Shown here: positions 11,480 through 42,879 of the stretch, one piece after another
Layout: each line of letters opens with the position of its first letter
Numbering within the stretch: the stretch's first letter is position 1
Assembly: GCA_905182425.1 (NCBI GenBank)
Contig: CAJJBP010000012.1
Location: 1 to 64,000, forward strand
From: an uncultured Planktomarina sp.
GTDB taxonomy: Bacteria; Pseudomonadota; Alphaproteobacteria; Rhodobacterales; Rhodobacteraceae
DNA: 64,000 nucleotides
Direction of reading: 5' to 3'
Program-made: the position numbers and the translations under genes
The notes under the pieces: generated by a model
What the model saw: only the letters and a program-made list of their open reading frames with translations
What the model was told of the DNA's origin: nothing
The model's database searches: none

Positions 11480-13759
<2,280 letters not shown>

Positions 13760-14001: not shown

Positions 14002-15108
14002 ATGAAAATCAACACACTCGCGGTTGTATGCCTATCATCTAGTGCATCTATTGCTACGGCAGGAGGCTTTGACGCACAGACGTTAAGCACTTCGTTCATG
14101 TATGAGGAAGGAAGTTCTGCGAGTATATCCTATGCTACTTTGGATGCCAATGTTGCCAGAGAATATACTGGACCAGTTGGCGCCGGAATTCCTGGCACTA
14201 TTAAAACGTTGAAAGACACAACATTTATGAGTGCTGGATTTAAAACTAATTTTAACGATTTCGATATTGGTATTAGTAATTATACGTCAGGTGTAATTCT
14301 ACTTAACACAGGTGCAGCCCCCGTTCCGAGTGCCGACGCAAAAATTTCTACGACCACGATTTTAGCAAAATATAACGTCGGCGAAAACCTTGCAATTTTA
14401 GGTGGAGCAAACATGAACAATTTAAGGGCGTCGGGCATTGTTAGCGTGGCCGGGGCATATGACATGGCGGCGAGCTCAGCCACAGGCATTGTTGCCGGAG
14501 TAGCATATTTAATTCCAGAAATCGCGCTTCGCGCCGAATTACTATATCAAGCAAAAAGTTCTTTTGGTACGGCCACAGATTTCACCGGAGCGGGGCCCCT
14601 GGCTGGTGTAAATTTAAGCAATTCAGAAACCGCAATTAGCCGACCCGAAACACTGACTTTGAATTTCCAAACCGGGATCGCAGAAGGTACACTCCTATTT
14701 GGGTCAGTTTATCAAGCAAAGTGGGCTGGCGCTCCAATAACTATTGATCTTGGCAACGATGCGTTTAACGCTGCTGACATCGATGAATCTTTTGATACAA
14801 CAACTAAATATACGATAGGTGTTGGCCGCAAACTCACAGATAGCCTTTCGGTTTTGGCATCTTATTCAACCGAGGCAGGAAGCTCAGACCCCATTACAAG
14901 TCTGTTCACAATGACAAATGGCTCAACAGCAATTAGTGTTGGTGCGAAGTATGCGGTATCGGACACAGCAGCTATTACCGTCGGTGTACAACAGACCACC
15001 TACGGTAATGTTGATGTCGACTGGAGCACAACAGGACCAGGCGTCGATGCTGCGTATCGAGGCAGTACAGCAACTACCGGGGTCATTAGCTTAGCGTATA
15101 GCTTTTAG
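14002..15108 (+). CDS. Outer membrane transport protein of the OmpP1/FadL family
   Basis: Predicted outer-membrane beta-barrel channel for hydrophobic substrates such as fatty acids. 368 residues with a signal peptide (about 1-20, ending IATAGG), alternating amphipathic strands, and a C-terminal Phe (SLAYSF), as expected for barrel assembly. The start of the mature chain (GGFDAQTLSTSFMYEEG) resembles alphaproteobacterial FadL-like porins. GGGAG lies upstream of the ATG. The neighbouring operons encode acyl-CoA catabolism, so fatty-acid uptake is a sensible role. A strong terminator follows. Confidence 0.75.
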   Translation: MKINTLAVVCLSSSASIATAGGFDAQTLSTSFMYEEGSSASISYATLDANVAREYTGPVGAGIPGTIKTLKDTTFMSAGFKTNFNDFDIGISNYTSGVILLNTGAAPVPSADAKISTTTILAKYNVGENLAILGGANMNNLRASGIVSVAGAYDMAASSATGIVAGVAYLIPEIALRAELLYQAKSSFGTATDFTGAGPLAGVNLSNSETAISRPETLTLNFQTGIAEGTLLFGSVYQAKWAGAPITIDLGNDAFNAADIDESFDTTTKYTIGVGRKLTDSLSVLASYSTEAGSSDPITSLFTMTNGSTAISVGAKYAVSDTAAITVGVQQTTYGNVDVDWSTTGPGVDAAYRGSTATTGVISLAYSF

Positions 15109-15117
15109 AACTATCAC

Positions 15118-15149
15118 AGCGGGGAGCTTAAAAACTCTCCGCTTTTTTT
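15118..15149 (+). terminator. Terminator after the FadL-like gene, shared with the facing operon
   Basis: AGCGGGGAG pairs with CTCTCCGCT around an 8-base loop and is followed by seven T on the plus strand. It overlaps the last bases of the convergent thioesterase gene. Confidence 0.88.
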
Positions 15150-15580
15150 GTCATCAAGCCAGTTAAGCAGTTCCTTAAACCCGAGCCAATATTTGTTGGG
15201 CGCCTTGATTTTTTATCGACATTGACGTGCACAAAGTGCCCCTCGGCTGCTGCATGCAGATTGTCTCCTTTGAACAGGCCAATATGATACGTAACCGAAG
15301 ACGTACCGAGTTTGCTAACCTTTATGCCAGCATGGATAATATCCGGAAACGCAAGCTCACTGAAATAGCGACACCCCGTCTCAACAACCAAAAACATGTT
15401 TGAGCCATGTCTGAAATCCAAGACATTTTTTTCAATCAGGTAACCATTCACAGCCGTATCAAATAATTGATAATGAACAGTATTATTCATATGGCCATAA
15501 ACATCATTATCAAACCAACGCGTTGGTATGTTCGAAAATACAACGTAGTCTTCGCGAGCGCTTGGGGATAGCTTTACCAT
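15128..15580 (-). CDS. Acyl-CoA thioesterase, 4HBT hot-dog fold
   Basis: Predicted to hydrolyse acyl-CoA thioesters. 150 residues with the YbgC/FadM-type active-site stretch TRWFDNDVYGHMNNTVHYQLFDTAVN (Asp near residue 25) and a single hot-dog domain. The start overlaps the end of the iron alcohol dehydrogenase gene by 7 bases. Last gene of the minus-strand operon: acyl-CoA dehydrogenase, MDR oxidoreductase, iron alcohol dehydrogenase, thioesterase. It could release CoA from dead-end intermediates. Confidence 0.8.
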   Translation of the reverse strand: MVKLSPSAREDYVVFSNIPTRWFDNDVYGHMNNTVHYQLFDTAVNGYLIEKNVLDFRHGSNMFLVVETGCRYFSELAFPDIIHAGIKVSKLGTSSVTYHIGLFKGDNLHAAAEGHFVHVNVDKKSRRPTNIGSGLRNCLTGLMTKKAESF

Positions 15581-16725
15581 GCCGCCTCATAAATTTGGAG
15601 CGCTGCTGCCTCGTTCACTTTTCGTGGATTATTTACCAGCAGGCGTGTTTGCTTCATTGCGTCACGCGCCAACATTGGCAATGCATCGTGCTCTATTCCA
15701 ACCTCGCGCAGCGTTTGAGGTAAACCACAATCCCTACTGAGCTTGGCCATCGCTTCCACGAATTTGATTGCGGCGTCTGCATCACTCTCTGCAGAAATAT
15801 TTGGAAAAGCATGTCGCAAGAGTTGTGCATAAGCTCGAGAAGCTACTTTAATATTAAACCTTAAAACATGTGGCAGAACTAACGAGTTAGAGAGGCCATG
15901 CGGTACTTTGTAGTGACCACCTATCGGATAGGCTAACGCATGCACCGCAGCTACTGGAGAATTTGCAAAGGCTTGTCCCGCAAGCATCGAGCCCAAAAGC
16001 ATATCACTTCGAGCATCAATATCATCTGGTACATGAACAGCCTGCCTCAGGACACCGCTCATTAATCGCAGAGCCTCAATAGCCAAAGTCCGGCTGATTG
16101 GATTATTATTGGCGTTTGTGCTTGAGTAGGCTTCAATCGCATGCACCATCGCGTCGATTCCAGTGGCAGCCGTCACGTGTGGCGGTAATCCCCGCGTCAG
16201 CTCGGGATCCAAGATGGCTATATCAGGCAAAAGTAAAGGGCTTACGACACCCATTTTTTCCGAGGTGCCCGTGGTCACAATGGAAATAGGTGTCACTTCA
16301 GACCCAGTTCCAGACGTTGTAGGAACAAGTACTAGAGGAAGGCGTGGGCCAATAGCATTGCCAACGCCGTAAGCATCGGCAAGTGGTTGGCCGGATGCCG
16401 CAAGAAGAGCCGCAAGCTTGGCCACATCCAAAGATGAGCCACCCCCAAAGCCTAAAACCCCACTCACACCACGCGCCATATCAGCAGCTAGCAAAATAAT
16501 GTCTTCAGGCGGGTCGGCCTTGACTGCATCGAAAACATCAACCAAAAGCCCGGCGCTGCGTAGATTTTCCACTGCGGTCTCAACCAGCCCAGTCGCAACC
16601 ATACCAGGGTCAGTGACAAACAGAATTCTATCTCCAAACAGAGGTTGAATTATACTTGCCAAATCTTTGGCCAAACCAGGCCCCATCCGAATGCTCGGTG
16701 TGCTATTAAATGCAAAAGGCTTCAA
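15574..16725 (-). CDS. Iron-containing alcohol dehydrogenase
   Basis: NAD(P)-dependent group III alcohol dehydrogenase, 383 residues. The nucleotide-binding domain has GFGGGSSLDVAK and PTTSGTGSEVT; the metal domain has HAIEAYSS, HALAYPIGGHYKVPHG and surrounding His residues. Candidate substrates are hydroxy acids such as 4-hydroxybutyrate, or medium-chain alcohols; the sequence does not decide. It lies between the MDR oxidoreductase (3 bases apart) and the thioesterase in a tight operon led by an ACAD10/11-type dehydrogenase. Confidence 0.85.
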   Translation of the reverse strand: MKPFAFNSTPSIRMGPGLAKDLASIIQPLFGDRILFVTDPGMVATGLVETAVENLRSAGLLVDVFDAVKADPPEDIILLAADMARGVSGVLGFGGGSSLDVAKLAALLAASGQPLADAYGVGNAIGPRLPLVLVPTTSGTGSEVTPISIVTTGTSEKMGVVSPLLLPDIAILDPELTRGLPPHVTAATGIDAMVHAIEAYSSTNANNNPISRTLAIEALRLMSGVLRQAVHVPDDIDARSDMLLGSMLAGQAFANSPVAAVHALAYPIGGHYKVPHGLSNSLVLPHVLRFNIKVASRAYAQLLRHAFPNISAESDADAAIKFVEAMAKLSRDCGLPQTLREVGIEHDALPMLARDAMKQTRLLVNNPRKVNEAAALQIYEAAW

Positions 16726-16728
16726 AAC

Positions 16729-17733
16729 TTAACCTCCAGAGATATCCAATACGACCTTACCGTCTTTGATTTTGGTAGCCGAAGCTAACTCGTTTACAGC
16801 CTTACTAAGCGAAACTATCTGCGCTACATCAGTTTTCCACAAGCCAGAAACAAAGCGAGTCTGTATTTTTTGAATTGCACTTGTCAATTCAGATTTGGAT
16901 GCATTTGAAATCCATTTCGACAACCAAAATCCTTCAATGCGCTTATCCATAAATATGAATTGTCCCATGTGAGTTAGACACGGAGATTGTGTCGAAAGCT
17001 TACCATAACTAACCCATCTCGCGCGACTTGGCATATAGGTAAATAACTTTTCACTGAATTGGTCACCAACAGCATCCAGCATAATGCGAGGTTTGAGTAA
17101 TAAAGTTTCAGAGCTTGCTTTTTCAACAAAGTCTGAGTTTCCTGTCATCAGGATGGACGTTGCCCCATAATCTTTAATTGCATTTGCAGCAGTAGCACCG
17201 CGCACAACCGCAATTGCTGGGATACCAGCATCACGTGCCAGTCCTAACATCAGTTTACCTAATTGAGAGTTGGCAGCTGTGATAATCACCGGCCCATCAA
17301 CCATTTGCATCATAGCAACAGCAGTCAGGGGGTTCACCATTTGGTTTGCTCCATCCGTTCGCGAAATACCATCATGCAGAGGCACGCACGCTGTAGCTTG
17401 AGTAACTGCATATTCTGCCCACGCACCAGATCCGTCCGGGGATACAAAAAACGCAACTCGCTGACCAATCAAGGCCTTTGGGCCCTGCTCAACAACGCCA
17501 CATCCCTCAAAACCAGCAACAGCTCCCAGTCGTCGTACTTGTCCGTACTCACCTTTTATAAAATGAAGGTCAGACGGGTTAACTGCAGCGGTTAAGACCC
17601 GGATCAAAACTTGACTGGCGTCAATCACAGGTTTGGGAACATCAGCATACTTCAGCCAATCTGACCCCGCTTTTATAGTCGGTCCCGTACTGACATGCGC
17701 GAATCCCTCATGCAACAAGGTCAGAGCTTTCAT
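16729..17733 (-). CDS. MDR-family zinc-free alcohol dehydrogenase / quinone oxidoreductase
   Basis: NADPH-dependent medium-chain reductase of the quinone oxidoreductase / enoyl reductase type, 334 residues. The GroES-like N-terminal domain contains RVLTAAVNPSDLHFIKGEYG and AGFEGCGVVEQG; the Rossmann domain starts near VIITAANSQLGKLMLGLARDAG. The zinc-ligand pattern of true alcohol dehydrogenases is not evident. Two bases separate it from the upstream acyl-CoA dehydrogenase gene. It may reduce an unsaturated intermediate of the pathway encoded around it. Confidence 0.8.
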   Translation of the reverse strand: MKALTLLHEGFAHVSTGPTIKAGSDWLKYADVPKPVIDASQVLIRVLTAAVNPSDLHFIKGEYGQVRRLGAVAGFEGCGVVEQGPKALIGQRVAFFVSPDGSGAWAEYAVTQATACVPLHDGISRTDGANQMVNPLTAVAMMQMVDGPVIITAANSQLGKLMLGLARDAGIPAIAVVRGATAANAIKDYGATSILMTGNSDFVEKASSETLLLKPRIMLDAVGDQFSEKLFTYMPSRARWVSYGKLSTQSPCLTHMGQFIFMDKRIEGFWLSKWISNASKSELTSAIQKIQTRFVSGLWKTDVAQIVSLSKAVNELASATKIKDGKVVLDISGG

Positions 17734-17735
17734 AT

Positions 17736-18971
17736 TTATATCTTTTCTTGCGTATGTTTACGCAATTCAGCACGCGCCACTTGCCTGCGGTGTACCGCAT
17801 CTGGACCATCAGCTAAACGTAGGGTCCGCAAGTTCATCCAATAAGCTGCAAGAGGAGTGTCTTGGCTAATACCACCGGCTCCATGCATCTGGACAGCTTC
17901 ATCTACAACCTTTAAGGCCGTCAAGGGCGCAACAACTTTAATCTTTGAAATCCAAGGTGCGGCTGCTCGAGGATCCCCCTGGTCCATCATCCATGCTGCT
18001 TTCAGACACAACAATCGCGCCATCTCAATTTCCATACGCGCATCAGCAATTATATCAAAATTCGCCCCTAACATCGCGATTGGCTTGCCAAAAGCTGTAC
18101 GGCTCAAACTCCGAGTACACATCATTTCCAGTGCCGCTTCCGCCTGTCCAATAGCGCGCATACAATGATGAATTCGCCCAGGGCCAAGCCGCCCTTGGGC
18201 AATTTCAAAACCACGCTCTTCACCTAAAAGCAGGTTTTCAACAGGGACACGTACGTCGGTAAAGCGAATATGAAAGTGCCCATGTGGTGCGTCGTCATGG
18301 CCATAGATTTCCATCGGCCGCAATTTTTCTATCCCCGGTGTGGCGGCATCTACCACAATCATCGAGTGGCGTTTATGCTTTGGTGCATCGTCGCCCCCAG
18401 TTTTTACCATGACGATATAGACGGCACAGCGCGGGTCCCCTGCGCCACTTGCCCACCATTTCTCACCATTTAAAACATAATCATCACCATCCCGTACACA
18501 AGATAGACTAAGGTTTGTAGGATCGGAGGATGCAACATCAGGCTCTGTCATTACATAAGCTGACCTGATTTTTCCTTCAAGCATCGGCACCAACCAGCGC
18601 TCTTTCATTTTATCCGTACCATAGCGTTCAAAAACTTCCATGTTTCCGGTATCTGGGGCTGAACAATTGAATACCTCCGCAGCCAAAGGAGATTTTCCAA
18701 GTTCCTCCGCCATATATGCATATTCCACGGTACTTAAACCAAAACCTTTTTCACTGCCGGTTAACCAGAAGTTCCACAGACCCTCAGCACGAACTTTTGC
18801 TTTTAGACCCTCCATGATTTCGACCTGACGATCAGTAAAGGTCCAGCGATCCCCTTTGGAAATCTCAGCGTGATATTCATGCTCTACTCGCATAATGTCG
18901 TCACGCACGATTTGCGCCACCCGATCACGTAAATTTGTGACCCGCTCTGAAAGTCCAAGATTCATTTCCAT
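17736..18971 (-). CDS. Acyl-CoA dehydrogenase, ACAD10/ACAD11-like
   Basis: FAD-dependent acyl-CoA dehydrogenase, 411 residues. The segments GLWNFWL, LAAEVFNCSAPDTGNMEVFERYG, SAYVMTEPDVASSDPTNLS, HGHFHIRFTDVRVPVENLLLG, LGPGRIHHCMRAIGQAE and EAVQMHGAGGISQDTPLA are characteristic of the dehydrogenase part of mammalian ACAD10/11 and of Pseudomonas LvaC-type enzymes. Those act on 4-phosphorylated hydroxyacyl-CoA made by a partner kinase. That kinase (19553-20587) lies in the divergent operon, so the two genes look like a split ACAD11. AAAGGA precedes the ATG. Confidence 0.9.
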   Translation of the reverse strand: MEMNLGLSERVTNLRDRVAQIVRDDIMRVEHEYHAEISKGDRWTFTDRQVEIMEGLKAKVRAEGLWNFWLTGSEKGFGLSTVEYAYMAEELGKSPLAAEVFNCSAPDTGNMEVFERYGTDKMKERWLVPMLEGKIRSAYVMTEPDVASSDPTNLSLSCVRDGDDYVLNGEKWWASGAGDPRCAVYIVMVKTGGDDAPKHKRHSMIVVDAATPGIEKLRPMEIYGHDDAPHGHFHIRFTDVRVPVENLLLGEERGFEIAQGRLGPGRIHHCMRAIGQAEAALEMMCTRSLSRTAFGKPIAMLGANFDIIADARMEIEMARLLCLKAAWMMDQGDPRAAAPWISKIKVVAPLTALKVVDEAVQMHGAGGISQDTPLAAYWMNLRTLRLADGPDAVHRRQVARAELRKHTQEKI

Positions 18972-19028
18972 GTAATATCCTTTGACATCTTCTTTATATT
19001 TTGCGCTTTACAGCAGTCCACTTCATGA

Positions 19029-19048
19029 AACATACTACACAGTATGTT
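19029..19048. promoter_or_regulatory. Perfect palindrome between the two acyl-CoA operons, probable TetR operator
   Basis: AACATACT-ACAC-AGTATGTT is a perfect 8-base inverted repeat with a 4-base centre, in the spacer between the divergent dehydrogenase gene and the MaoC gene. Size and symmetry fit a TetR-family site, and a TetR gene is third in the plus-strand operon. It would let one repressor control both directions. The long MaoC reading frame would run through this palindrome, which argues for the later start codon of that gene. Confidence 0.75.
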
Positions 19049-19066
19049 GTCAACGGAAACGAAACT

Positions 19067-19543
19067 ATGTCAGCTCTGGAAAAAACGCTAAGCTCTCAAT
19101 TACATTTGGTGGGAACGCAGGTCGGTCTGAGCCCGTGGGTTCATATTGACCAAAAGACCATAGATAGATTCGCTATACTCACCAAAGATATGCAGTTCAT
19201 TCACATCAATCCAAAAAGAGCAGCAGTTGAAACACCATTTGGCGGAACTGTGGCGCATGGCTTTTTAACTTTGTCGTTTGCCAGCCACTTCATCGTTGAA
19301 GCTATGGCTCCCCTGCCCTACGCAATCATGAATTTAAATTCAGGTTTTGATACAATACGGTTTTTAAATCCAGTTCTGAGCGGCAGTAACATTAGAGGGC
19401 TTTTCACACTTAAAGATGTAACTCAAAGGTCAGAGACCCAACTGAGGTTTGTGTTTCATATGACCATTGAGATTGAAGGCAAAGATCGTCCTGCACTCGT
19501 AGCAGATTGGATCAATACAGCTGTCTTCCCTGCGCTTGAATAG
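19067..19543 (+). CDS. MaoC-like enoyl-CoA hydratase
   Basis: Predicted (R)-specific enoyl-CoA hydratase with a single hot-dog domain. From the ATG at 19067 the protein has 158 residues, the normal length; the longer frame from 19001 would cross the operator palindrome. The hydratase motif is recognisable as FAILTKDMQFIHINPKRAA (catalytic Asp/His region) followed by FGGTVAHGFLTLSF. It stands 9 bases before the kinase gene and is first in the plus-strand operon. Hydration of the enoyl-CoA made by the ACAD11-like pair is the obvious role. Confidence 0.85.
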   Translation: MSALEKTLSSQLHLVGTQVGLSPWVHIDQKTIDRFAILTKDMQFIHINPKRAAVETPFGGTVAHGFLTLSFASHFIVEAMAPLPYAIMNLNSGFDTIRFLNPVLSGSNIRGLFTLKDVTQRSETQLRFVFHMTIEIEGKDRPALVADWINTAVFPALE

Positions 19544-19552
19544 GACATTCAG

Positions 19553-20587
19553 ATGGCCAAAACACTTCACTCATTCGACCCCTTAATATTATCGCGTTAC
19601 CTCGAAAAATACGTTCCAGGCTTTGCCGGTCTTAAAAAGATGACAAAATTCTCAGATGGCCAATCTAATCCAACGTACAAAGTCATTGACAACGCAGACG
19701 TTGCATTTGTTCTACGAGCAAAGCCACCTGGAACACTACTGAAATCCGCCCATGCCGTCGATCGTGAATTCAGGGTTATGTCGGCGTTAGCAAAAACGCA
19801 GGTTCCAGTTCCAAATATGCTGCACTTATCAGAAAGTGAAAGCCCATTGGGCGCACAGTTTTTCGTCATGGATTTCCTGCCTGGAACTGTCTTTTGGGAT
19901 CCTGCCTTGCCTGGAAGGTCAAATGGTTTTCGTAGTGAAATATATAGCTCGATGGTCAAAACACTTGCCAAACTTCATGATGTAAATCCATCAAAAGTTA
20001 ATTTAGATACCTTTGGAAAACCTGGCAATTACTTTGAGCGGCAAGTTAACAGATGGAGTACTCAATACCGCGCCTCTGAAACCCAACTTAATTCAGATAT
20101 GGATTGGACGATCGACTGGCTAAAGGCGAACCTTGTCGCAGATGATGGGCAGCTCTCAATCGTTCACGGTGACTATAGGCTTGATAATGTTATGTTTGGA
20201 AAAGAGACGGTCGAGATGATCGCGGTATTAGACTGGGAACTTTCCACCCTTGGGCATCCTTTTGCTGACCTAGCATTTCAATGTATGGGCCTCAGACTTC
20301 CACAAACCGCTCTGACAAAAGGGTTAGGGGACATTGATCGCGCTGCTATTGGAATTCCTAACGAAGCAGATTATGTATCCGAATACTGTGAATTGCGAGG
20401 TATTTCACTTCCAGAAAACTGGTCTTTTTATGTGGCGTTTTCCTTCTTTAGGTTAGCCGCAATTTTGCAGGGTGTCTTATACCGAACGCAATCTGGAAAT
20501 GCCTCAAATCCAGCAGGATTAGATATTATGAAATCTGCTGTGAAAGACCTTGCAGAAGCTGCCAAAACCGCAACGCGCGGGGACTGA
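19553..20587 (+). CDS. Aminoglycoside-phosphotransferase-fold kinase, ACAD10/11 type
   Basis: 344-residue kinase. The opening (SDGQSNPTYKV, FVLRAKPPGTLLKSAHAVDREFRVMSAL, VPVPNM, FFVMDFLPGTVFWDPALPG) is the hallmark of the kinase part of ACAD10/11 and LvaA-like proteins, and the catalytic loop HGDYRLDNVMF with VLDWELSTLGHPFADLAFQ is complete. Known members phosphorylate the 4-hydroxy group of 4-hydroxyacyl-CoA so that an ACAD partner can eliminate phosphate. The partner is encoded divergently at 17736-18971. The gene ends one base before the TetR start. Confidence 0.9.
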   Translation: MAKTLHSFDPLILSRYLEKYVPGFAGLKKMTKFSDGQSNPTYKVIDNADVAFVLRAKPPGTLLKSAHAVDREFRVMSALAKTQVPVPNMLHLSESESPLGAQFFVMDFLPGTVFWDPALPGRSNGFRSEIYSSMVKTLAKLHDVNPSKVNLDTFGKPGNYFERQVNRWSTQYRASETQLNSDMDWTIDWLKANLVADDGQLSIVHGDYRLDNVMFGKETVEMIAVLDWELSTLGHPFADLAFQCMGLRLPQTALTKGLGDIDRAAIGIPNEADYVSEYCELRGISLPENWSFYVAFSFFRLAAILQGVLYRTQSGNASNPAGLDIMKSAVKDLAEAAKTATRGD

Positions 20588-20588
20588 A

Positions 20589-21191
20589 ATGGCAACCTCA
20601 AACAAACCCAAAAAGTCAATAATTCTGGATGCAGCAGCGCTTGCATTTGCTTCAAACGGGGTTGATCAAACGTCAATTGATGACGTAGCGCGCGCTTTAG
20701 GCGCAACCAAAGGTAAAATATACCACCACTTTCGTTCAAAGGGAGAATTGGTCTGCGCAATCAGAAAATACTCAGTAGAACTGACATTGGATCGCGTGCG
20801 CCCACTGTTTAAAAGTTCCTCTGAACCATCTTTGAAATTCTACAAAATGGCGTTTGCACATGTTGAGGCAATGATGTCTGAGTTGTCATATCACAGGGTA
20901 GTTGTAGAGGAGATGCGGGGCTCAGAAACCGGCTCAACAACAGCTCATGAACGTGAAATTCTCAACGAGATTTCTGTCCTACAGACAGAATATGAGATGA
21001 TGTTTCGCACCGTTCTTGAGGCTGGAATCGCATCAGGCGTTTTTAGGAAACAAAATATCTCAGTCGCCCTCCGTAGTTTTCTCATGATGCTGCATGCTCC
21101 CATTTATTGGTATGAACCTCGCACTGACGAAAATGAAAAAGACATCGCTGATCAACTTGCACTAATGGCACTAAAAGCTGTTTGCGCTTAA
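20589..21191 (+). CDS. TetR-family transcriptional regulator
   Basis: 200 residues. The N-terminal helix-turn-helix is classic TetR: AALAFASNGVDQTSIDDVARALGATKGKIYHHFRSKGELV (about 13-52). The C-terminal ligand domain is poorly conserved, as usual. ATG at 20589 is chosen because it lies one base after the upstream stop and the family starts there; the frame extends 13 codons further into the kinase gene. Placement inside an acyl-CoA operon suggests control by an acyl-CoA ligand, and the palindrome at 19029-19048 is a good target. Confidence 0.9.
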   Translation: MATSNKPKKSIILDAAALAFASNGVDQTSIDDVARALGATKGKIYHHFRSKGELVCAIRKYSVELTLDRVRPLFKSSSEPSLKFYKMAFAHVEAMMSELSYHRVVVEEMRGSETGSTTAHEREILNEISVLQTEYEMMFRTVLEAGIASGVFRKQNISVALRSFLMMLHAPIYWYEPRTDENEKDIADQLALMALKAVCA

Positions 21192-21271
21192 CTCACTCGA
21201 CTTATTATGTTTTATTAAACTGACTTCGAACTCTAAGAAATGCTGAAGCATACCACCAAAAGGAAGACCAA

Positions 21272-23362
21272 ATGTTCGATCAAGTTACGCGCACAAATGA
21301 ACAAAATATTGCTGTTATTGAAATTAATAATCCTCCAGTTAATGCTTTGGGGTATGCAGTACGTAAAGGGATTTTGGACTGTTTAAAGGTGGCAGAAGCA
21401 GATGATGCTGTAACCGCAATAGTAATCATCGGTTCTGGTCGTACGTTCCCTGCTGGTGCTGATATCACAGAATTTGGAACTGTGATGAAAGAGCCCCATC
21501 TACCAGAAGTCATTGACCACATTGAGAGTTGCTCAAAGCCAGTAGTTGCGGCTTTGCATGGGACCGCTTTGGGAGGTGGTTTTGAAATAGCTTTGGGCAG
21601 TCATTACCGTATTGCCGACGCAAATGCCCGGGTAGGTTTGCCTGAAGTACATCTTGGTTTGCTGCCAGGAGCAGGTGGAACACAAAGATTACCGCGCTTG
21701 TGTGGTGCCGCTTTCGCGCTCGACGTTATGCTAAAAGGCACACCCATCAGTGCTAAAGCAGCTAAAGATGCCGGCCTCATCGACCGCATCACAAAAGGTG
21801 ATTTACGTCGAGCTGCGATCACCTTTGCGAATGAAGTACGTACTGTTCGGAAGACTTGTGATGAAACAAGTCAGCTTAAGGATCATGCAGCTTACCGTGC
21901 AGATCTAGCCGCAGCACATAAAATGATTACTACGAGAATGAAGGGGCAAATTGCACCATTAAAAATCATCGCGTGTGTAGAAGCAATTCTCGAAAAGCCC
22001 TTTCATGAGGGCCGACAGCTTGAGCGGCAATGTTTTATGGACTGCATGGCTTCAGACCAATCCAAAGGCATGATACACGCATTCTTTGCCGAACGCAGCA
22101 GCGCCAAAGTCCCAGAGGCCAGCAGGGCTGAGCCTCGCATACTTGAAACATTGGGTGTTGTTGGAGGCGGGACAATGGGTGCTGGCATTACTGTGGCTGC
22201 ATTGAACGGAGGCTTACCTGTCACAATGATCGAAAGGGATACCGAAAGCATCGCACGCGGCCGTGGCAACGTTGAAAAAGTATATGATCGGCTTGTTGCA
22301 AAAGGGCGAATGACTACGAATGAAAAGAATACATTAATGACACTGTACACTGGCTCCACTAATTATAATGACTTATCAAACGTGGATATGGTAATCGAAG
22401 CAGTTTTCGAACGTTTGGACGTAAAGCGCGCAGTGTTTGAGAAGCTCGACAAAGTCATCAAGCCTGGCGCCGTACTGGCATCAAACACCAGCTATCTCAA
22501 CATTGATAGTATATCCTCAGCGACAAAACGGCCAGATCAAGTGATCGGCCTACATTTCTTCAGTCCAGCAAATATTATGAAATTGCTGGAAATAGTCGTT
22601 CCAGAGCAAGCGGCTGATGACGTGGTGGCAACTGGTTTTTCTTTGGCAAAACGTTTGAGAAAAGTGCCAGTTAGAGCCGGCAATGCAACAGGCTTTATTG
22701 GCAATCGCATTCTTGGGAAATACGGCGTTTGTGCAGCTCACATGATGGAAGATGGTGCTACGCCTTATGAAATTGACAACGCACTTTTGGATTTTGGCTA
22801 CCCAATGGGAATCCATGCTATGTATGATCTCGCGGGACTGGACATAGGCTGGGACAATCGCAAAGCTGCGGCCCCGACACGTGACCCTGATACACGCTAT
22901 GTAACAATAGCAGATCGCATCTGTGAAAATGGCTGGTTTGGGCAAAAAACCGGTCGAGGGTTTTATATCTATAAAGACGGCGCTAGGCGCGGATCCCATG
23001 ACCCAGAGGTATTAAGTATTATTGCAGATATACGTTCGAAAAAGGGGATCACACCAAAATCATTTTCGGCGACTGAAATCATGGAGCGTTATCTAGCTGC
23101 AATGGTAAATGAAGGCTGCGAAGTACTACGGGAAGGCGTTGCTTTAAAACCATCAGATATAGATGTAACTTTTGTTTATGGATATGGTTTCCCGCGTTAT
23201 CGAGGTGGGCCTATGAAGTACGCTGACATGTATGGTGTCCAAAAAATGCTCACTAATATACAAAAATATGAAAAGGAAGATCCAGTTTTTTGGAAACCCT
23301 CGCAGCTGTTAGTAGATATGGTGGCTCAAGGAAAAGAATTCGAAGACCTCAACAAAGGGTAG
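21272..23362 (+). CDS. Bifunctional enoyl-CoA hydratase / 3-hydroxyacyl-CoA dehydrogenase
   Basis: FadB/FadJ-type multifunctional beta-oxidation enzyme, 696 residues. The crotonase domain (about 1-190) has GRTFPAGADITEFG, ALHGTALGGGFEIALG and GLPEVHLGLLPGAGGTQRLPRL. The dehydrogenase domain (about 290-470) has the NAD-binding loop GVVGGGTMGAGI, ASNTSYLNI and GLHFFSPANIMKLLEIV, and is followed by two C-terminal 3HCDH domains (GNATGFIGNRIL, GWFGQKTGRGFY, FVYGYGFPRYRGGPM). AAAGGAAG precedes the start. It performs hydration and NAD-dependent oxidation; no thiolase is encoded nearby. Confidence 0.93.
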   Translation: MFDQVTRTNEQNIAVIEINNPPVNALGYAVRKGILDCLKVAEADDAVTAIVIIGSGRTFPAGADITEFGTVMKEPHLPEVIDHIESCSKPVVAALHGTALGGGFEIALGSHYRIADANARVGLPEVHLGLLPGAGGTQRLPRLCGAAFALDVMLKGTPISAKAAKDAGLIDRITKGDLRRAAITFANEVRTVRKTCDETSQLKDHAAYRADLAAAHKMITTRMKGQIAPLKIIACVEAILEKPFHEGRQLERQCFMDCMASDQSKGMIHAFFAERSSAKVPEASRAEPRILETLGVVGGGTMGAGITVAALNGGLPVTMIERDTESIARGRGNVEKVYDRLVAKGRMTTNEKNTLMTLYTGSTNYNDLSNVDMVIEAVFERLDVKRAVFEKLDKVIKPGAVLASNTSYLNIDSISSATKRPDQVIGLHFFSPANIMKLLEIVVPEQAADDVVATGFSLAKRLRKVPVRAGNATGFIGNRILGKYGVCAAHMMEDGATPYEIDNALLDFGYPMGIHAMYDLAGLDIGWDNRKAAAPTRDPDTRYVTIADRICENGWFGQKTGRGFYIYKDGARRGSHDPEVLSIIADIRSKKGITPKSFSATEIMERYLAAMVNEGCEVLREGVALKPSDIDVTFVYGYGFPRYRGGPMKYADMYGVQKMLTNIQKYEKEDPVFWKPSQLLVDMVAQGKEFEDLNKG

Positions 23363-23366
23363 GCAG

Positions 23367-24563
23367 ATGAATTTAAACTTTACAGTTGCAGATCAGGCGT
23401 TTCGTAAAGAGGTTAAAAACTTTCTGAATGAAAATTTATCTCAGGACATCGCCACAAAAATGAAGGCTGACTTTGAGCTTTCGAAAGTAGAAATAGAATC
23501 CTGGCACGCAGTCCTTCATCAGCAAGGCTGGTTGACGTATTCATGGCCCAAAGAGTACGGCGGTACTGGTTGGAATTCTGTACAACAATTCATTTTTGAG
23601 GAAGAATCTGCCATGGCCGGCGCACCACGCATCTTGCCTTTTGGTCTCAAAATGCTTGCGCCCGTGTTGATGGAGTTCGGTTCTAAAGAACAAAAAGATT
23701 ATTGGCTACCTCGCATGTGTGACGGACACGATTGGTGGTGCCAAGGATATTCTGAGCCAGGTTCCGGCTCTGATCTTGCCAGCTTGAAAACAAGCGCTGT
23801 GCGCGATGGCAAGGATTACATTATAAACGGCCAAAAAACTTGGACGACCCTTGGCCAACACGCTAATATGATTTTTTGTTTGGTGCGAACCAATGCTACT
23901 GGCAAACCACAAGCAGGAATTTCGTTTATACTCGTAGATCTCGCAACACCTGGTATTGAAATGCGGCCCATCCAAACCTTCGACGGCGGTAAAGAAGTGA
24001 ATGAGGTGTTCTTTACAGATGTTCGTGTTCCTGCATCAAACCTAGTCGGTGAGGAAAACATGGGGTGGACCTATGCCAAATATTTACTCGCTCATGAACG
24101 CAACGGAATCGCCAATGTTGGAATTTCCAACCAAAAGTTAACACGCCTTAAACGCCTTGCGCTCAGTCAAAAGAGAGGGAGTAAACCTCTTGCTGAAGAT
24201 CCCCTTTTTGCAGCTCGATTGGCCCGGTTGGAAATAGAATTACGTAACCTAGAAACAACAAATCTTCGTGTTCTGGATGGTTTTGCGCATGGCGCAGGTC
24301 CTGGACCCGAAAGCTCAATGCTGAAAATAATCGGCTCCGAGTTAGAGCAAGATTTTGATGATTTGACACGCCGTGCACTGGGTCGTCACGCACAAGCACA
24401 CACGCCTGAGGTGTTTGAAAAAGGTTATAACGGCCCTCAGGTTGCCCCAAAAAATATGGCTAACCAATCAACTGCGTATTTCAACAAACGTAAAGTTTCG
24501 ATTTATGGCGGATCAAATGAAATTCAAAAAAATATCATCACAAAAATGATATTGGAACTTTAG
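23367..24563 (+). CDS. Acyl-CoA dehydrogenase, large type
   Basis: FAD-dependent acyl-CoA dehydrogenase, 398 residues, complete with QGYSEPGSGSDLASLKT, INGQKTWTTLGQHAN, VNEVFFTDVRVPASNLVGEENMGW and C-terminal IYGGSNEIQKNIITKMIL. It is 4 bases behind the FadB-like gene and 4 bases before a second, shorter dehydrogenase. Such side-by-side pairs often form alpha2beta2 enzymes for bulky or branched acyl-CoA (as in actinobacterial sterol side-chain degradation), which may apply here. Confidence 0.9.
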   Translation: MNLNFTVADQAFRKEVKNFLNENLSQDIATKMKADFELSKVEIESWHAVLHQQGWLTYSWPKEYGGTGWNSVQQFIFEEESAMAGAPRILPFGLKMLAPVLMEFGSKEQKDYWLPRMCDGHDWWCQGYSEPGSGSDLASLKTSAVRDGKDYIINGQKTWTTLGQHANMIFCLVRTNATGKPQAGISFILVDLATPGIEMRPIQTFDGGKEVNEVFFTDVRVPASNLVGEENMGWTYAKYLLAHERNGIANVGISNQKLTRLKRLALSQKRGSKPLAEDPLFAARLARLEIELRNLETTNLRVLDGFAHGAGPGPESSMLKIIGSELEQDFDDLTRRALGRHAQAHTPEVFEKGYNGPQVAPKNMANQSTAYFNKRKVSIYGGSNEIQKNIITKMILEL

Positions 24564-24567
24564 GATT

Positions 24568-25662
24568 ATGGATTTCCAACCTACCCAAGAGCACCTGATG
24601 CTATCAGATATGATCGGCAAGTTTATTGAAAATGACTATAATCTCAAAGATAGAATTTCTGCTGGAAATTCAGAACTTGGGTACAGTGAAAATACTTATA
24701 AGACTCTCGCGGAATTAGGGATTGTAGGAGCTTTATTTCCCGAAGGTGTTGGAGGGTTTGGTGGCACAGGCTACGATATTTCAACTGTTTTCGAAGCCTT
24801 GGGCAAAGGCCTTGTGAATGAGCCTTTGGTCGATAGTGCCTTGGCAAGCGGGTATATACTAGCCGCCACTGGTCAAGACGCATTGATTGAAAAATTAATA
24901 AGTGGGGAGCTCAGGGTCGCACTGGCGTTGATCGAAAATGGTGCTGATTATGATTGGGAATTACCATCTCAAATGGCCCAAAAAATAAATGGGATTTGGA
25001 CCATAAGTGGCAAAAAAACAATGGTGAAATACGCCTTAGGCACCGACGCAATAATTGTAAGTTCAACCACCTCATCCTCAGAAGGTATCAGCCTATTCTT
25101 GATAGAGACGGGCGCTGATGGTCTCAATCTACACAGCTTCCTAACCGTTGACGGTGGATCTGCTTCAGATATTGAATTCAACAATACACCAGCCATCCTA
25201 TTGGGTGGTGAAGGGCAGTCTTATGATCTTCTTGCGTCAGCAATTGCGCGCAATACCCTAGCCGTTTGCGCTGAAGCGCTCGGTATTATGGATAGTATTA
25301 AAAATATGACTATTAACTATCTTAGGACACGCCAACAATTTGGAACCGTGATTGGTAAATTTCAAGCCTTGCAACATCGTACCGCGCAAATGTTGCTTGA
25401 AATAGAGCAAGCTAAATCTGCTGTAACTAATGCAGCAAATGCGCTGGAGGCCTCAACAGACGAACGAAATCGCTCGATTGCAGCTGCAAAATATTCAATT
25501 GGTAGGATCGGCTGCTTTGTAGCCGAAGAGGCTATTCAAATGCATGGTGGGATTGGTATGACCTGGGAGTATGAGCTGGGACACTTTGCCAAAAGACTCG
25601 TAATGATTGATCATGAGTGGGGTGATCAAGACCATCACCTTATGCAGTTTACGACGTTTTAA
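24568..25662 (+). CDS. Acyl-CoA dehydrogenase, short partner subunit
   Basis: 364 residues with the acyl-CoA dehydrogenase fold but more divergent than its neighbour. The C-terminal part has RTRQQFGTVIGKFQALQHRTAQMLLEIEQAKS and AIQMHGGIGMTWEYELGHFAKR, while the middle substrate region is less typical. Together with 23367-24563 it probably forms a heteromeric dehydrogenase. It ends the plus-strand operon; a hairpin follows. Confidence 0.87.
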   Translation: MDFQPTQEHLMLSDMIGKFIENDYNLKDRISAGNSELGYSENTYKTLAELGIVGALFPEGVGGFGGTGYDISTVFEALGKGLVNEPLVDSALASGYILAATGQDALIEKLISGELRVALALIENGADYDWELPSQMAQKINGIWTISGKKTMVKYALGTDAIIVSSTTSSSEGISLFLIETGADGLNLHSFLTVDGGSASDIEFNNTPAILLGGEGQSYDLLASAIARNTLAVCAEALGIMDSIKNMTINYLRTRQQFGTVIGKFQALQHRTAQMLLEIEQAKSAVTNAANALEASTDERNRSIAAAKYSIGRIGCFVAEEAIQMHGGIGMTWEYELGHFAKRLVMIDHEWGDQDHHLMQFTTF

Positions 25663-25730: not shown

Positions 25731-25766
25731 AGGCTTTCCCAAATTAATTTTAGGAAAGCCTTTGTG
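25731..25766 (+). terminator. Terminator-like hairpin after the acyl-CoA operon
   Basis: AGGCTTTCC (25731-25739) pairs perfectly with GGAAAGCCT (25753-25761) over a 13-base AT-rich loop and is followed by TTGTGT, a weak T tract. Confidence 0.7.
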
Positions 25767-37890: not shown

Positions 37891-38652
37891 ATGCTGAGCG
37901 TATCCGATTTACATTTATCCTTCGGCGGAATTAAAGCGCTGCGAGGGGTCAACTTTGAGGCAAAAAAGGGCGAAATCACAGGTGTGATTGGTCCAAACGG
38001 CGCAGGTAAGACCTCACTTTTCAACGCGATTTCAGGCTTTTATACGCCCCACAAAGGCAGAATTCATTTTAACAATGCCGACATTACAGGCATTTCTCCT
38101 GATAAACGCGCATCACTTGGAATGGCACGTACATTTCAGAACATCGCATTGTTTCGTGGAATGACGGTACTCGATAACATCAAGCTCGGTGGCCATACTC
38201 GTTTGAACACAGGTCTCTTTTCAGCATTAAAATATTTTGGAAGCGCACGCAAAGAAGAACTAGAGCTACGCCGCGACATTGAAGAGCGCGTGATCGACTT
38301 CCTTGAAATCGATCACATCCGCAAATACCCAATCACCATGCTCTCTTACGGGTTACAAAAACGTGTCGAACTGGCACGCGCTCTTGCGATGCGCCCCAGC
38401 GTTTTACTTTTAGATGAACCAGTTGCTGGAATGAACCGCGAAGAGACTGCTGATATGGCGCGCTTTATTCTGGACGTACAAGAACAATATGGAACAACAA
38501 TTTTATTAGTGGAACATGACATGCACATGGTAATGGATATTTGTTCTCATATCGTTGTTTTAAACTTTGGCCAGCAAATTGCCTCTGGGACACCTACTGA
38601 GGTTGCCAAAAACCCTGCAGTGATCGAAGCCTACTTAGGCGTAGCAGCGTAG
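37891..38652 (+). CDS. livG: Liv-type ABC transporter ATP-binding protein
   Basis: 253-residue ATPase of a branched-chain-amino-acid-type (HAAT) importer. Walker A GPNGAGKTS (33-41), QN switch AMARTFQNIALF, signature MLSYGLQKRVELARALA, Walker B LLLDEPVAGM and H-loop VEHDMHMV. The Ser-Tyr-Gly form of the signature motif is usual for LivG. First gene of a five-gene importer operon ending in an acyl-CoA synthetase, so the true substrate is probably a carboxylic acid rather than leucine. Confidence 0.92.
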   Translation: MLSVSDLHLSFGGIKALRGVNFEAKKGEITGVIGPNGAGKTSLFNAISGFYTPHKGRIHFNNADITGISPDKRASLGMARTFQNIALFRGMTVLDNIKLGGHTRLNTGLFSALKYFGSARKEELELRRDIEERVIDFLEIDHIRKYPITMLSYGLQKRVELARALAMRPSVLLLDEPVAGMNREETADMARFILDVQEQYGTTILLVEHDMHMVMDICSHIVVLNFGQQIASGTPTEVAKNPAVIEAYLGVAA

Positions 38653-38660
38653 GGGGCATC

Positions 38661-39665
38661 ATGGGACAGTTTACTCAGTTTGCAATTAACGGCCTGATGA
38701 GCGGCGCCATCTACGCACTGATCGCCGTCGGTATCGTGTCCGTGTATAAAGCGACTAAAGTTGTTAACTTTGCGCATGGGTATCTGATCATGTTTGGTGC
38801 TTACTTTTATTTTACATTTGCCGTCATTATTCCAGGGCAAGAATGGGCGCCTGAGTGGCTTGCCTCATGGAAGCCTTCTTGGATGCTTGAAATGCGCAAA
38901 GGTTTAGGCATGTTCTCACCCCTTGGTGCGGTCTTGGATTGGATGGCAAATATACCGCGTATCCTACTGGGACTTGTCGGCGCAGTGTCGTGCAATGCGA
39001 TTCTTGGTCGTGTGGTAGAACGTACTTTGATGCGCCCGCTCATGGGCCAATCAGTTTTTGCAATGATAATGGTGACAGTTGGGTTGATTTCAATCTTGTC
39101 TGGCTCAGCATCACTGATCTGGACTGCAGACGCAGCTTTTGTTCCCCATATTGCACCAAACACACCTATCCGTTTTGAACTGTTTGGCACTATGATTTTC
39201 CTCTTTGGAGCAGATATTGTTAACATGTTGATTGCTCTGCTTATCTTCGGTGGTATTGTTACAATGGTGAAATTTACCAAAGCTGGCATTGCAATCCGCG
39301 CAACCGCTGAAGATCAATCAACAGCGTATTCCATGGGTATTTCTGTCCCTAAAGTTTTTTCCAACGCATGGGTTCTGGCCAGTACTACGGGCGCAGTCGC
39401 TGGTGCGATATTGGCAACACGTAACGGTATTTCGCCCTCACTTGGACTATTTGGTTTCTCAGTTTTAGCCATAGTTTTGATGGGTGGACTTGATAGCTAT
39501 GTTGGATGCTTCATAGCCGCCATGTCGGTTGGTGTTTTAGAAGCCATGACACAATGGAAGATGGGCGGCGAATGGGCGGCGATTGTCCCCTACGTTGCCG
39601 TATTAGTTGTCATTATTTTTCGTCCCCACGGCCTTATGGGTCAAAAAGAAGTTGAACGAATATGA
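38661..39665 (+). CDS. livH: Liv-type ABC transporter permease 1
   Basis: 334-residue inner-membrane permease with about eight hydrophobic segments. The start is typical for LivH (FAINGLMSGAIYALIAVGIVSVYKATKVVNFAHG), with RATAEDQSTAYSMGI and ILMGGLDSYVGCFIAA later on. It has an extra loop at about residues 55-90 compared with E. coli LivH. GGGGG upstream of the start; the stop overlaps livM by 4 bases (ATGA). Confidence 0.9.
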   Translation: MGQFTQFAINGLMSGAIYALIAVGIVSVYKATKVVNFAHGYLIMFGAYFYFTFAVIIPGQEWAPEWLASWKPSWMLEMRKGLGMFSPLGAVLDWMANIPRILLGLVGAVSCNAILGRVVERTLMRPLMGQSVFAMIMVTVGLISILSGSASLIWTADAAFVPHIAPNTPIRFELFGTMIFLFGADIVNMLIALLIFGGIVTMVKFTKAGIAIRATAEDQSTAYSMGISVPKVFSNAWVLASTTGAVAGAILATRNGISPSLGLFGFSVLAIVLMGGLDSYVGCFIAAMSVGVLEAMTQWKMGGEWAAIVPYVAVLVVIIFRPHGLMGQKEVERI

Positions 39666-40729
39666 TCAACGGTAACCTCAAAGCAGACTACAGCGCTGAC
39701 GAGCGGATTCTGAATAATCGCAACAAACAATTTTTTGTTTATGGCAGTATGTTTTTTCTGACACTATTTCCTGTATTTGCAGATGACTATGCGGTCCTAA
39801 TGGCCTGCAAAATGGGTATCCTCCTGATAGCGGTGATCGGCGTGAACGTTTTAACAGGCTACACGGGCCTAATTTCTTTGGGGCACGGCGCATTTATTGC
39901 AATTGGGGCATATTCAACGGTTATCTTCAGCAATCTCTTCGACGGCCTGCCCACTGGTATTTTGCCCTTTGTCGTTGTGCCATTGGCTATCTCTGTTTCA
40001 GCAATCATAGGCATCATCGTTGGATTGCCATCCCTACGCGTTAAGGGTCTGTACCTCGCTGTGGCCACTCTTGCGGCAAGCTTTATTGTTAAATTCCTGA
40101 TAGAACAGGACCTATTTTCACCCTGGACAGGGGGTATTGTTGGTATCGATACACCTGTACCGAACATTTTGGGGTGGGAGCTTGATACCAAACGCGAGAT
40201 GTATGTATTGATCACAGTGCTAGCCATTTGCACAATGCTTGCAGCACAGAACCTATTTCGAACCCGCGTTGGCCGTGCCTTCATTGCAATTAGAGACCGT
40301 GATTATTCAGCAGAAATTCTTGGCATTTCATTACTTCGCTATAAGCTAATGAGCTTTGCAATTTCTGCAGGCTATTGCGGGCTATCGGGTGCTCTTGGCG
40401 CATATTTCTACGCACGGATTTTGCCCGATCAGTTCGGCTTGAACCTTTCATTGGAATTAGTCGCAGCCTTGATCGTCGGCGGTATGGGGCGCACATTGGG
40501 CCCATTTTTTGGTGTTATAATCATCATGCTTGTACCTGAGTTAATCAAGATTAGTATGAGTTCAGCTACAGGCGGATCACTTGATTGGGCACGATATACA
40601 GCGCCAGTCCAAGAAATCGTTTTCGGTCTTCTACTCGTTTTCTTCTTACTAAAAGAGCCACTTGGCATCAATCAAATTACTGACCGTATGCTTCGCGCTA
40701 TAAACCGTTGGCCGTTTGCGCGTGGATAA
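39662..40729 (+). CDS. livM: Liv-type ABC transporter permease 2
   Basis: 355-residue partner permease with about ten hydrophobic segments and the LivM hallmark NVLTGYTGLISLGHGAFIAIGAYS, then LPSLRVKGLYLAVATLAAS, RDRDYSAEILGI and VGGMGRTLGPFFGV. Overlaps livH by 4 bases, which implies coupled translation. Confidence 0.9.
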   Translation: MINGNLKADYSADERILNNRNKQFFVYGSMFFLTLFPVFADDYAVLMACKMGILLIAVIGVNVLTGYTGLISLGHGAFIAIGAYSTVIFSNLFDGLPTGILPFVVVPLAISVSAIIGIIVGLPSLRVKGLYLAVATLAASFIVKFLIEQDLFSPWTGGIVGIDTPVPNILGWELDTKREMYVLITVLAICTMLAAQNLFRTRVGRAFIAIRDRDYSAEILGISLLRYKLMSFAISAGYCGLSGALGAYFYARILPDQFGLNLSLELVAALIVGGMGRTLGPFFGVIIIMLVPELIKISMSSATGGSLDWARYTAPVQEIVFGLLLVFFLLKEPLGINQITDRMLRAINRWPFARG

Positions 40730-40764
40730 AAATCAAAAGGCCACCACATTGGGAGATGATAATA

Positions 40765-41973: not shown

Positions 41974-42072
41974 ACGAGAATTGGATGGCTTTCGGGCCAT
42001 CCAACCGTCCTGACAGCCGTTTCTGACAAAACCAAGATATTTTAGACTTAAGAAGATGACAGGTAGGCACAG

Positions 42073-42870
42073 ATGCTAACGATTGAGAATATCGAGGTGA
42101 GCTATTATCATACTGTACAGGCCTTGCGAGGGCTCTCGCTTGAGGTGCCTCAAGGAAAGATTGTGACATTACTCGGAACTAATGGTGCGGGCAAAACGAC
42201 TACTCTTAAAGCGGCCTCTAATTTGTTGAAGCTAGAAAACGGTGAAGTCGGTGAAGGTCATATTCATTTTGATGGTCAGAATATAAAGAATATTGCCCCA
42301 GACGTTTTGGTAAAAAACGGGCTTTTCCATGTTCGAGAAGGGCGGCGTATTTTTTCAGAAATGACTGTAGAGGATAACTTAATTGCTGCGTCTTATGCCT
42401 TAGATGGACGAGGAATTAAGGTTGATTTCGACAAGGTCTACGCGTTTTTTCCAAGACTACAGGAGCGGCGAAAACAAATCGCAGGTTACCTATCAGGTGG
42501 CGAGCAGCAAATGCTGGCATTTGGCCGCGCCATGATCGCGCGTCCCAAATTAATTCTAATGGATGAGCCATCACTTGGATTGGCTCCAAAGTTTGTCAAA
42601 GAAATTTTCGATACAATTAAACGCTTAAACACGGAGGATGGGACATCGATCCTAGTTGTTGAACAGAACGCAGGTGTTGCCTTCTCCGTGGCTGATTTCG
42701 GCTATATTATGGAAAACGGGCAAATAGTTCTCGAGGGAGATGTCGAAGCCCTTAAAAATGATAAAGACATCCAAAGTTTCTATCTTGGTATCCCTGAAGA
42801 TGGCTCGGAAGGCCGCCAATCTTTTCGTGATGTTAAACATTACAAACGCCGCAAGCGCTGGTTGAGTTAA
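42073..42870 (+). CDS. livF: Liv-type ABC transporter second ATP-binding protein
   Basis: 265 residues with Walker A GTNGAGKTTT (34-43), signature LSGGEQQMLAFGRAM, Walker B LILMDEPSLGLAP and the switch His replaced by Gln-Asn (VVEQNAGVAFSVADF), as is usual in LivF. A basic C-terminal tail (FRDVKHYKRRKRWLS) extends beyond the standard length of about 237. Ten bases before the synthetase gene. Confidence 0.9.
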   Translation: MLTIENIEVSYYHTVQALRGLSLEVPQGKIVTLLGTNGAGKTTTLKAASNLLKLENGEVGEGHIHFDGQNIKNIAPDVLVKNGLFHVREGRRIFSEMTVEDNLIAASYALDGRGIKVDFDKVYAFFPRLQERRKQIAGYLSGGEQQMLAFGRAMIARPKLILMDEPSLGLAPKFVKEIFDTIKRLNTEDGTSILVVEQNAGVAFSVADFGYIMENGQIVLEGDVEALKNDKDIQSFYLGIPEDGSEGRQSFRDVKHYKRRKRWLS

Positions 42871-42879
42871 GGGTTTGCT

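Follow-up and report, generated by a model that had tools for sequence, protein, structure and literature searches.

The 64,000-nucleotide stretch of DNA analyzed here (hereafter the window) covers positions 1 to 64,000 of contig CAJJBP010000012.1 and stems from an uncultured member of Planktomarina, a genus of the Roseobacter group. The source genome is a 2.43-Mb draft that is 84% complete; at the locus under study, the nearest named relative is Planktomarina sp. ANT-104, whose kinase is 94% identical to that of the window. The cluster consists of ten closely packed genes in two divergent operons with one common spacer. The minus-strand operon comprises the genes for an ACAD10/11 (LvaC)-type acyl-coenzyme A (acyl-CoA) dehydrogenase (17736-18971), an MDR-family reductase (16729-17733; nearest PDB entry 3pi7, then the mitochondrial enoyl-thioester reductase MECR), an iron-containing alcohol dehydrogenase (Fe-ADH; 15574-16725; Pfam Fe-ADH, 7.8e-42) and a 4HBT/YbgC-FadM-like acyl-CoA thioesterase (15128-15580; Pfam 4HBT_2, 7.5e-12). 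The plus-strand operon encodes a MaoC-like enoyl-CoA hydratase (19067-19543; PF01575, 1.3e-21) that probably starts at the ATG at 19067 instead of the TTG at 19001, an ACAD10/11 (LvaA)-type kinase of the APH fold (19553-20587), a TetR-family regulator (20589-21191), a FadB/FadJ-like enoyl-CoA hydratase/3-hydroxyacyl-CoA dehydrogenase recognized by profile matches (21272-23362), and the PimC-like large subunit (23367-24563; nearest PDB entry 4x28) and PimD-like small subunit (24568-25662) of a paired acyl-CoA dehydrogenase. Within the operons the genes are 1-9 bases apart or overlap shortly, the exception and maximum being a gap of 80 bases 5' of the FadB gene. The gene set and its coordinates, as laid out in an initial annotation made from the window alone, were confirmed; the TetR gene and a palindrome in the common spacer were absent from that account and are added here.

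The 17736-18971 protein matches human ACAD11 (2wbi) at 1.3e-115 and the medium-chain type 1ukw at just 8.6e-41. In mouse ACAD11, simulation has the 4-phosphate bound by R626, H634 and R637; a general role is given for R631, and D753 is the base (PMC12440821). The full set of five is present in the window protein (R261, R266, H269, R272, and D388, in the order R626, R631, H634, R637, and D753), in line with the ACAD10/11 signature assigned to it in the initial annotation, and is absent from PimC and PimD of the window. Among 108 collected locus sequences, 89 carry the RRHR set, 84 of them with the aspartate and five gapped at that position (aligned pieces with a stop, less than 60% coverage or less than 60 bits were excluded, and identical pieces merged). 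In a tree of 63 rows sampled from the 115 collected, in which several other rows are long branches, the 49 motif-bearing rows constitute one side of a branch with 99/89 support and enclose human and mouse ACAD11, so that the phylogenetic check proposed initially places this dehydrogenase with ACAD11 and apart from ordinary acyl-CoA dehydrogenases. The protein has 11 matches in its own genome, of which itself alone exceeds 34% identity. By these sequence features it is an ACAD10/11 (LvaC)-type dehydrogenase and would be expected to eliminate phosphate from a 4-phosphoacyl-CoA. ACAD11-type dehydrogenases (55-57%) are also present in nine loci (L123-L131) of genomes inferred to be Pseudomonas-like, in whose fetched stretches a kinase was not found; the motif is present in all five of these that were included in the tree, and the genus of one of them has a kinase match in 78 of 79 genomes, nearly all at 30-34% identity.

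The partner kinase (19553-20587) matches the ACAD11 kinase domain 8v3v at 1.3e-70 and 3dxp at 2.6e-92. Its D207, N212, and R163 correspond to the catalytic D220 and N225 and to the CoA-site R176 of mouse ACAD11, which bears out the kinase signature assigned initially; the equivalents of these three residues occur in 112 of 113 collected locus kinases and thus do not separate subgroups. An arginine beside the alpha-C glutamate is likewise conserved (R71 in the window kinase; residue 84 of the mouse protein by count) and may correspond, by its position next to the glutamate and not by its number, to R86, which is named as a CoA-site residue there (PMC12440821). In a kinase tree (52 of 118 rows), a 97/92 branch parts the window protein from the kinases of the Pseudomonas-like genomes and 9o56, with the ACAD11 kinase and 9fsg forming long branches and the bootstrap unconverged. 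The kinase has a single match in its own genome and is present in 85 of 149 genomes of the wider family at 1e-40. By its matches and residues we take it as an ACAD10/11 (LvaA)-type kinase that would phosphorylate 4-hydroxyacyl-CoA. In several lineages a histidine phosphatase gene stands beside the kinase gene (L050, L055, L058, L083, L220, and other loci), an arrangement also reported for Pseudomonas citronellolis (PMC6692424); none is found among the window cluster genes.

The predicted operator in the divergent spacer (19029-19048) reads AACATACT-ACAC-AGTATGTT and includes ATACT-N4-AGTAT. Taken alone, this palindrome is weak, since the window holds one match at up to three mismatches against 0.20 expected by shuffling; its weight derives from its conservation and from a wider genome search, which also counter the notion of a random match. 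In all nine Planktomarina-type loci (the window, L039, and L059-L065, seven of which include the left flank), the operator is kept at the same place with a variable center. Seven are exact, L060 has five center bases, and L064 has one change in an arm. The pattern AACATACT-N3-6-AGTATGTT occurs once per genome in eight of these nine genomes and is missing from the ninth, that of L064. No second operator was found 5' of the FadB gene in the search of the window, and FadB-pimC-pimD is therefore taken as a part of the MaoC operon or as transcribed from an unseen promoter.

The nearest PDB relatives of the TetR protein are DarR proteins (8sua, 6.2e-33). DarR operators have ATACT-N4-AGTAT in common, a sequence read by Lys44 and Gly45 of DarR (PMC10636190), and these two residues align with the KG of the GATKG stretch in the recognition helix of the window protein. 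Of 20 loci examined, 19 have GATKG or GASKG, and the remaining one, L224, has no TetR match. When 394 genomes of the family were searched with AACATACT-N5-GTATGTTGTCAA at up to two mismatches, 14 had a site, as opposed to one for a reversed control pattern. The window's genome and that of a genus-mate account for two of the 14; the other 12 lie beyond the genus. Eleven of these 12 sites adjoin a homologous TetR gene together with relatives of cluster genes: ACAD11 and the kinase in L197 (also found through ACAD11), L215, L219, and L220; the MDR reductase in L216-L218, L222, and L225; a related acyl-CoA dehydrogenase pair, 34% identical to PimC, in L221; and Fe-ADH, thioesterase, MaoC, pimC, and pimD in L223. 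The remaining site, L224, is without TetR or cluster relatives, and no match to the kinase was obtained in its genome. The other 11 genomes possess the kinase, which is located outside the fetched stretch for L216-L218, L221-L223, and L225. The five MDR-TetR loci under the same operator (L216-L218, L222, and L225) are situated near ABC transporter ATPases and AMP-binding matches and may constitute another branch, a second one, within this regulator family.

The association of operator and regulator is also apparent in a set of 50 fetched ACAD11 loci chosen for having both core genes. Of the 14 loci with a TetR gene within 3.5 kb, 13 have an operator, counted when it had at most two mismatches and lay no more than 1.5 kb from the start of ACAD11, as against one of the 36 loci without such a gene. 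Nine of the 14 are Planktomarina-type, three (L215, L219, and L220) were discovered via the operator itself, and the single miss is L060 with its spacer of five bases. With Planktomarina counted once and the three operator-derived loci dropped, the association stands at 3/3 versus 1/36 (hypergeometric probability about 4e-4). Operator conservation, genome search, and 50-locus comparison collectively bear out, at the level of sequence, the initial proposal that the two divergent operons belong to one regulon, a predicted arrangement that we consider well supported.

The genes for ACAD11, MaoC, kinase, TetR, FadB, PimC, and PimD occur in the same order in all nine Planktomarina-type loci, and the co-conservation of both operons that had been named as a check thus holds within the genus. 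Kinase identities across these loci amount to 67-69%, except for L059 (94%), and Fe-ADH and thioesterase genes are each present in seven of the seven loci with a left flank. Outside the genus, kinase and PimC genes lie within 10 kb of each other in five of 84 same-genome pairs (L055 and L179-L182), where 0.42 would be expected (P 8e-5, assuming uniform placement in a mostly 4-Mb genome). The trio FadB-pimC-pimD is found near the kinase in L055, L179-L182, and L197, as well as in L133 and L134 from another family of the phylum, where the FadB homologues are split; the stretches of all these loci except L181 also contain ACAD11. Locus L197 combines ACAD11, TetR, operator, MaoC, kinase, FadB, pimC, and pimD. 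The MDR gene adjoins ACAD11 in L187-L190 and L219 and is about 2 kb away from it in L191. Chance co-location is ruled out by the genus-wide conservation and the operator tests.

In eight fetched loci outside Planktomarina (L187-L191, L197, L215, and L219), ACAD11 is divergent from MaoC-kinase. Seven of them (all except L191) carry, 5' of MaoC, a gene for a short-chain dehydrogenase (SDRa) that is 63-69% identical to that of L197; it occupies the interval between operator and MaoC in L197, L215, and L219 and that between ACAD11 and MaoC in L187-L190. A second short-chain dehydrogenase is encoded 3' of the kinase in L197, L215, and L219. No short-chain dehydrogenase is present within the cluster in the nine Planktomarina-type loci, a 29-30% match in L061 lying well outside it, and no SDRa match was found in the fetched stretches of simpler divergent ACAD11/kinase pairs without MaoC (L040-L042, L044-L046, L048, and L199). 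The Fe-ADH/thioesterase unit exists elsewhere under the same operator, namely in L223, in company with a FadL gene and an electron transfer flavoprotein gene. LvaD, the short-chain dehydrogenase of the lva pathway, converts levulinyl-CoA to 4-hydroxyvaleryl-CoA by reduction (PMC6692424). Given this reaction, and judging by gene content, we most simply read the difference as a takeover of a keto/hydroxy step by Fe-ADH in Planktomarina, where it would replace the short-chain dehydrogenase.

Next to the minus operon, the plus strand encodes an outer-membrane beta-barrel (14002-15108), probably a divergent FadL/TodX relative and putative uptake pore. Its description as a FadL-like porin in the initial annotation receives no direct match from Pfam or NCBIfam and draws support from full-length homology (E 7e-20) to the L223 protein at 11600-12661, which scores 61.5 bits against PF03349 FadL/TodX (cut-off 29.7) and adjoins the Fe-ADH and thioesterase genes in another genus. 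Upstream of the barrel gene is that for the catalase-peroxidase KatG (11498-13759), which adjoins the cluster in 7/7 Planktomarina-type loci with flank. An inverted repeat 3' of pimD (25732-25760) is, by its sequence, a possible terminator of the plus operon; the segment 26603-26842 beyond it encodes a free-standing protein of 79 residues that we take to resemble the ligand-binding half of an Lrp/AsnC regulator. Further away (37891-44682), branched-chain-type ABC transporter genes accompany a gene for an AMP-binding enzyme of 600 amino acids, the one gene inside the window (at 42.9 kb) among 12 in the genome that exceed the Pfam cut-off for this family, and an unproven candidate for the CoA ligase absent from the cluster.

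From this arrangement we derive the following model. The DarR-type TetR protein would act as a repressor that binds the spacer palindrome and silences both operons until released by an inducer, which is probably an acyl-CoA or a lipid from the pathway. Derepression would furnish a module for 4-hydroxylated acyl-CoAs, in which phosphorylation of the 4-hydroxyl group by the kinase is followed by elimination of phosphate by the ACAD11-like enzyme, with a 2-enoyl-CoA as the product, a chemistry known for both families. The 2-enoyl-CoA would be hydrated and oxidized by MaoC and FadB, and the PimC-PimD pair would serve further rounds of beta-oxidation. Fe-ADH most likely interconverts keto or aldehyde groups and alcohols, the role that the short-chain dehydrogenases of the related loci may have and that LvaD has in the lva pathway. 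Where present, the MDR reductase might reduce a conjugated double bond. Substrate would enter through the FadL-type pore, and CoA bound in stalled intermediates would be freed by the thioesterase. Products of genes outside the cluster would carry out CoA ligation and thiolysis. We regard this model of a DarR-type repressor controlling a 4-hydroxyacyl-CoA breakdown module as probable. We put forward more tentatively, as possible, the wider formulation of a Rhodobacteraceae DarR-type regulon, recognizable by the operator ATACT-N4-RGTAT alone, that is devoted to 4-hydroxyacyl-CoA catabolism and in which a heteromeric PimCD dehydrogenase is coupled to the ACAD11-type pair of kinase and eliminase, with Fe-ADH having displaced the short-chain dehydrogenases in Planktomarina.

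Several findings weigh against the model. PimC and PimD score 470 bits (TIGR03204) and 243 bits (TIGR03203), under the NCBIfam equivalog cut-offs of 623.85 and 652.7, respectively. The MDR gene stands beside ACAD11 in just two of the seven flank-bearing Planktomarina-type loci and is missing from five, and the barrel was detected by tblastn in five of the seven (window counted) and not in two. Outside the genus, just one of 24 pairs has Fe-ADH at 10 kb or less from the kinase (P 0.12), and L197 has no match for MDR, Fe-ADH or thioesterase. Kinase, ACAD11, MaoC, and MDR occur together in L187-L190 without TetR or operator, so the regulator is no fixed partner of these enzymes. In addition, the diadenylate cyclase family PF02457 was found in none of eight genomes searched, while the control was positive in 11 of 14 known genomes; the reported DarR effector cyclic di-AMP (c-di-AMP; PMC10636190) has hence probably not been carried over, and the TetR ligand is probably a different one. 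Finally, profile annotation revealed neither a CoA ligase nor a thiolase among the cluster genes, and a lactonase is missing as well. The initial claim of a full route for hydroxylated fatty acids or lactones accordingly goes beyond the cluster, and both the full route and its substrate are matters of inference.

Alternatively, PimC, PimD, and FadB could be the main players in a route for medium-chain dicarboxylic or otherwise modified acids, with the kinase and ACAD11 clearing occasional 4-hydroxy by-products. For a PimCD homologue pair of a Ralstonia strain, strong fitness defects were recorded with dicarboxylic acids of chain lengths C8, C9, C10, and C12, and homologues in three other beta-proteobacteria have similar profiles (PMC12543098); L223, moreover, unites Fe-ADH, thioesterase, FadL, MaoC, TetR, pimC, pimD, and the operator in a fetched stretch of 19.5 kb that contains no kinase gene. 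Such a subsidiary role sits poorly with ACAD11 as the first gene of the minus operon and the kinase as the second of the plus operon in 9/9 Planktomarina-type loci, and with the operator loci L215, L219, and L220, which have kinase and ACAD11 and no pimC/pimD call in the fetched stretch. We therefore consider this explanation unlikely. Quite unlikely, in our view, is a pathway for levulinic-type short 4-keto acids in which Fe-ADH substitutes for LvaD. The core pair is the same as that of lva, and the presence of SDRa in L187-L190, L197, L215, and L219 and its absence from the Planktomarina cluster would fit such a substitution. Yet the cluster is without a ligase, an LvaB-like small gene, and a sigma-54 regulator, the FadL pore, FadB, and PimCD suggest longer chains, and the assignment of the short-chain dehydrogenase's job to Fe-ADH is itself read from gene content alone. 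A role in detoxifying 4-hydroxyalkenals, as products of lipid peroxidation or of algae, in place of growth, at which the similarity of the MDR protein to enoyl-thioester reductases and the adjoining katG gene might hint, is improbable in view of the absence of MDR from 5/7 Planktomarina-type loci, of any aldehyde dehydrogenase from the cluster genes, and of an operator at KatG, the window holding a single copy.

The breakdown of 4-hydroxylated acyl-CoAs under DarR-type control thus remains our preferred interpretation, and its parts can be set beside four known systems. Papers of 2024 and 2025 assigned the reaction of mammalian ACAD10/11 (PMC11342911; PMC12440821), and tested orthologues from a Burkholderia species can substitute for ACAD10 domains (PMC11342911). 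Both domains are homologous to the window proteins, down to the five dehydrogenase residues and the equivalents of kinase D220, N225, and R176; in the window, however, they are separate proteins encoded in divergent operons with bacterial operon partners, and the HAD domain of ACAD10 is absent. The locus would provide a bacterial counterpart of the mammalian reaction in an ocean lineage, under a predicted switch that can be recognized from DNA. The lva operon of Pseudomonas putida and P. citronellolis (PMC6692424) shares a kinase and an acyl-CoA dehydrogenase of the same families and already exhibits the two-gene split, a likeness at the level of protein family and gene content. The window cluster lacks LvaB, the short-chain dehydrogenase LvaD, the ligase LvaE, and the sigma-54-type LvaR, and in their stead contains TetR, Fe-ADH, FadB, PimC/PimD, and a probable relative of FadL; as the initial annotation stated, Fe-ADH and the paired dehydrogenases are outside the lva operon described there. 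Searches of the phylum and of the Pseudomonas-like genus yielded related clusters (L140 and L173-L178), none identifiable as lva.

The comparison system for FadB-PimC-PimD is PimFCD of Rhodopseudomonas palustris. As in PimFCD and PimCD-like pairs (PMC12543098), a FadB-like gene precedes those for a large and a small acyl-CoA dehydrogenase; unlike them, the window genes score under the PimC/PimD equivalog cut-offs and are linked to the kinase and ACAD11, and this linkage, together with Fe-ADH, points to substrates worth testing. Mycobacterial DarR (PMC10636190) resembles the window regulator in its TetR family membership, as its nearest PDB relative, and in the ATACT-N4-AGTAT sequence and the Lys-Gly of the recognition helix; it differs in its target genes and, with no c-di-AMP synthase family found in eight genomes, most likely in its effector. 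Work on mycobacterial DarR has treated it as a sensor of a second messenger; its relative here seemingly controls lipid breakdown in genomes in which no c-di-AMP synthase was detected, which raises the question of what this family senses. A link of Planktomarina, Roseobacter or DarR to the pathway was not recognized in any description among the literature matches listed. The chemistry of the core pair and its split bacterial form are thus already known from LvaA/LvaC and ACAD10/11, whereas DarR-type control, the link to PimCD, and the dehydrogenase swap appear new within the literature searched. The operator offers a handle for finding further members, perhaps including the missing ligase, and both route and switch become testable in sea bacteria.

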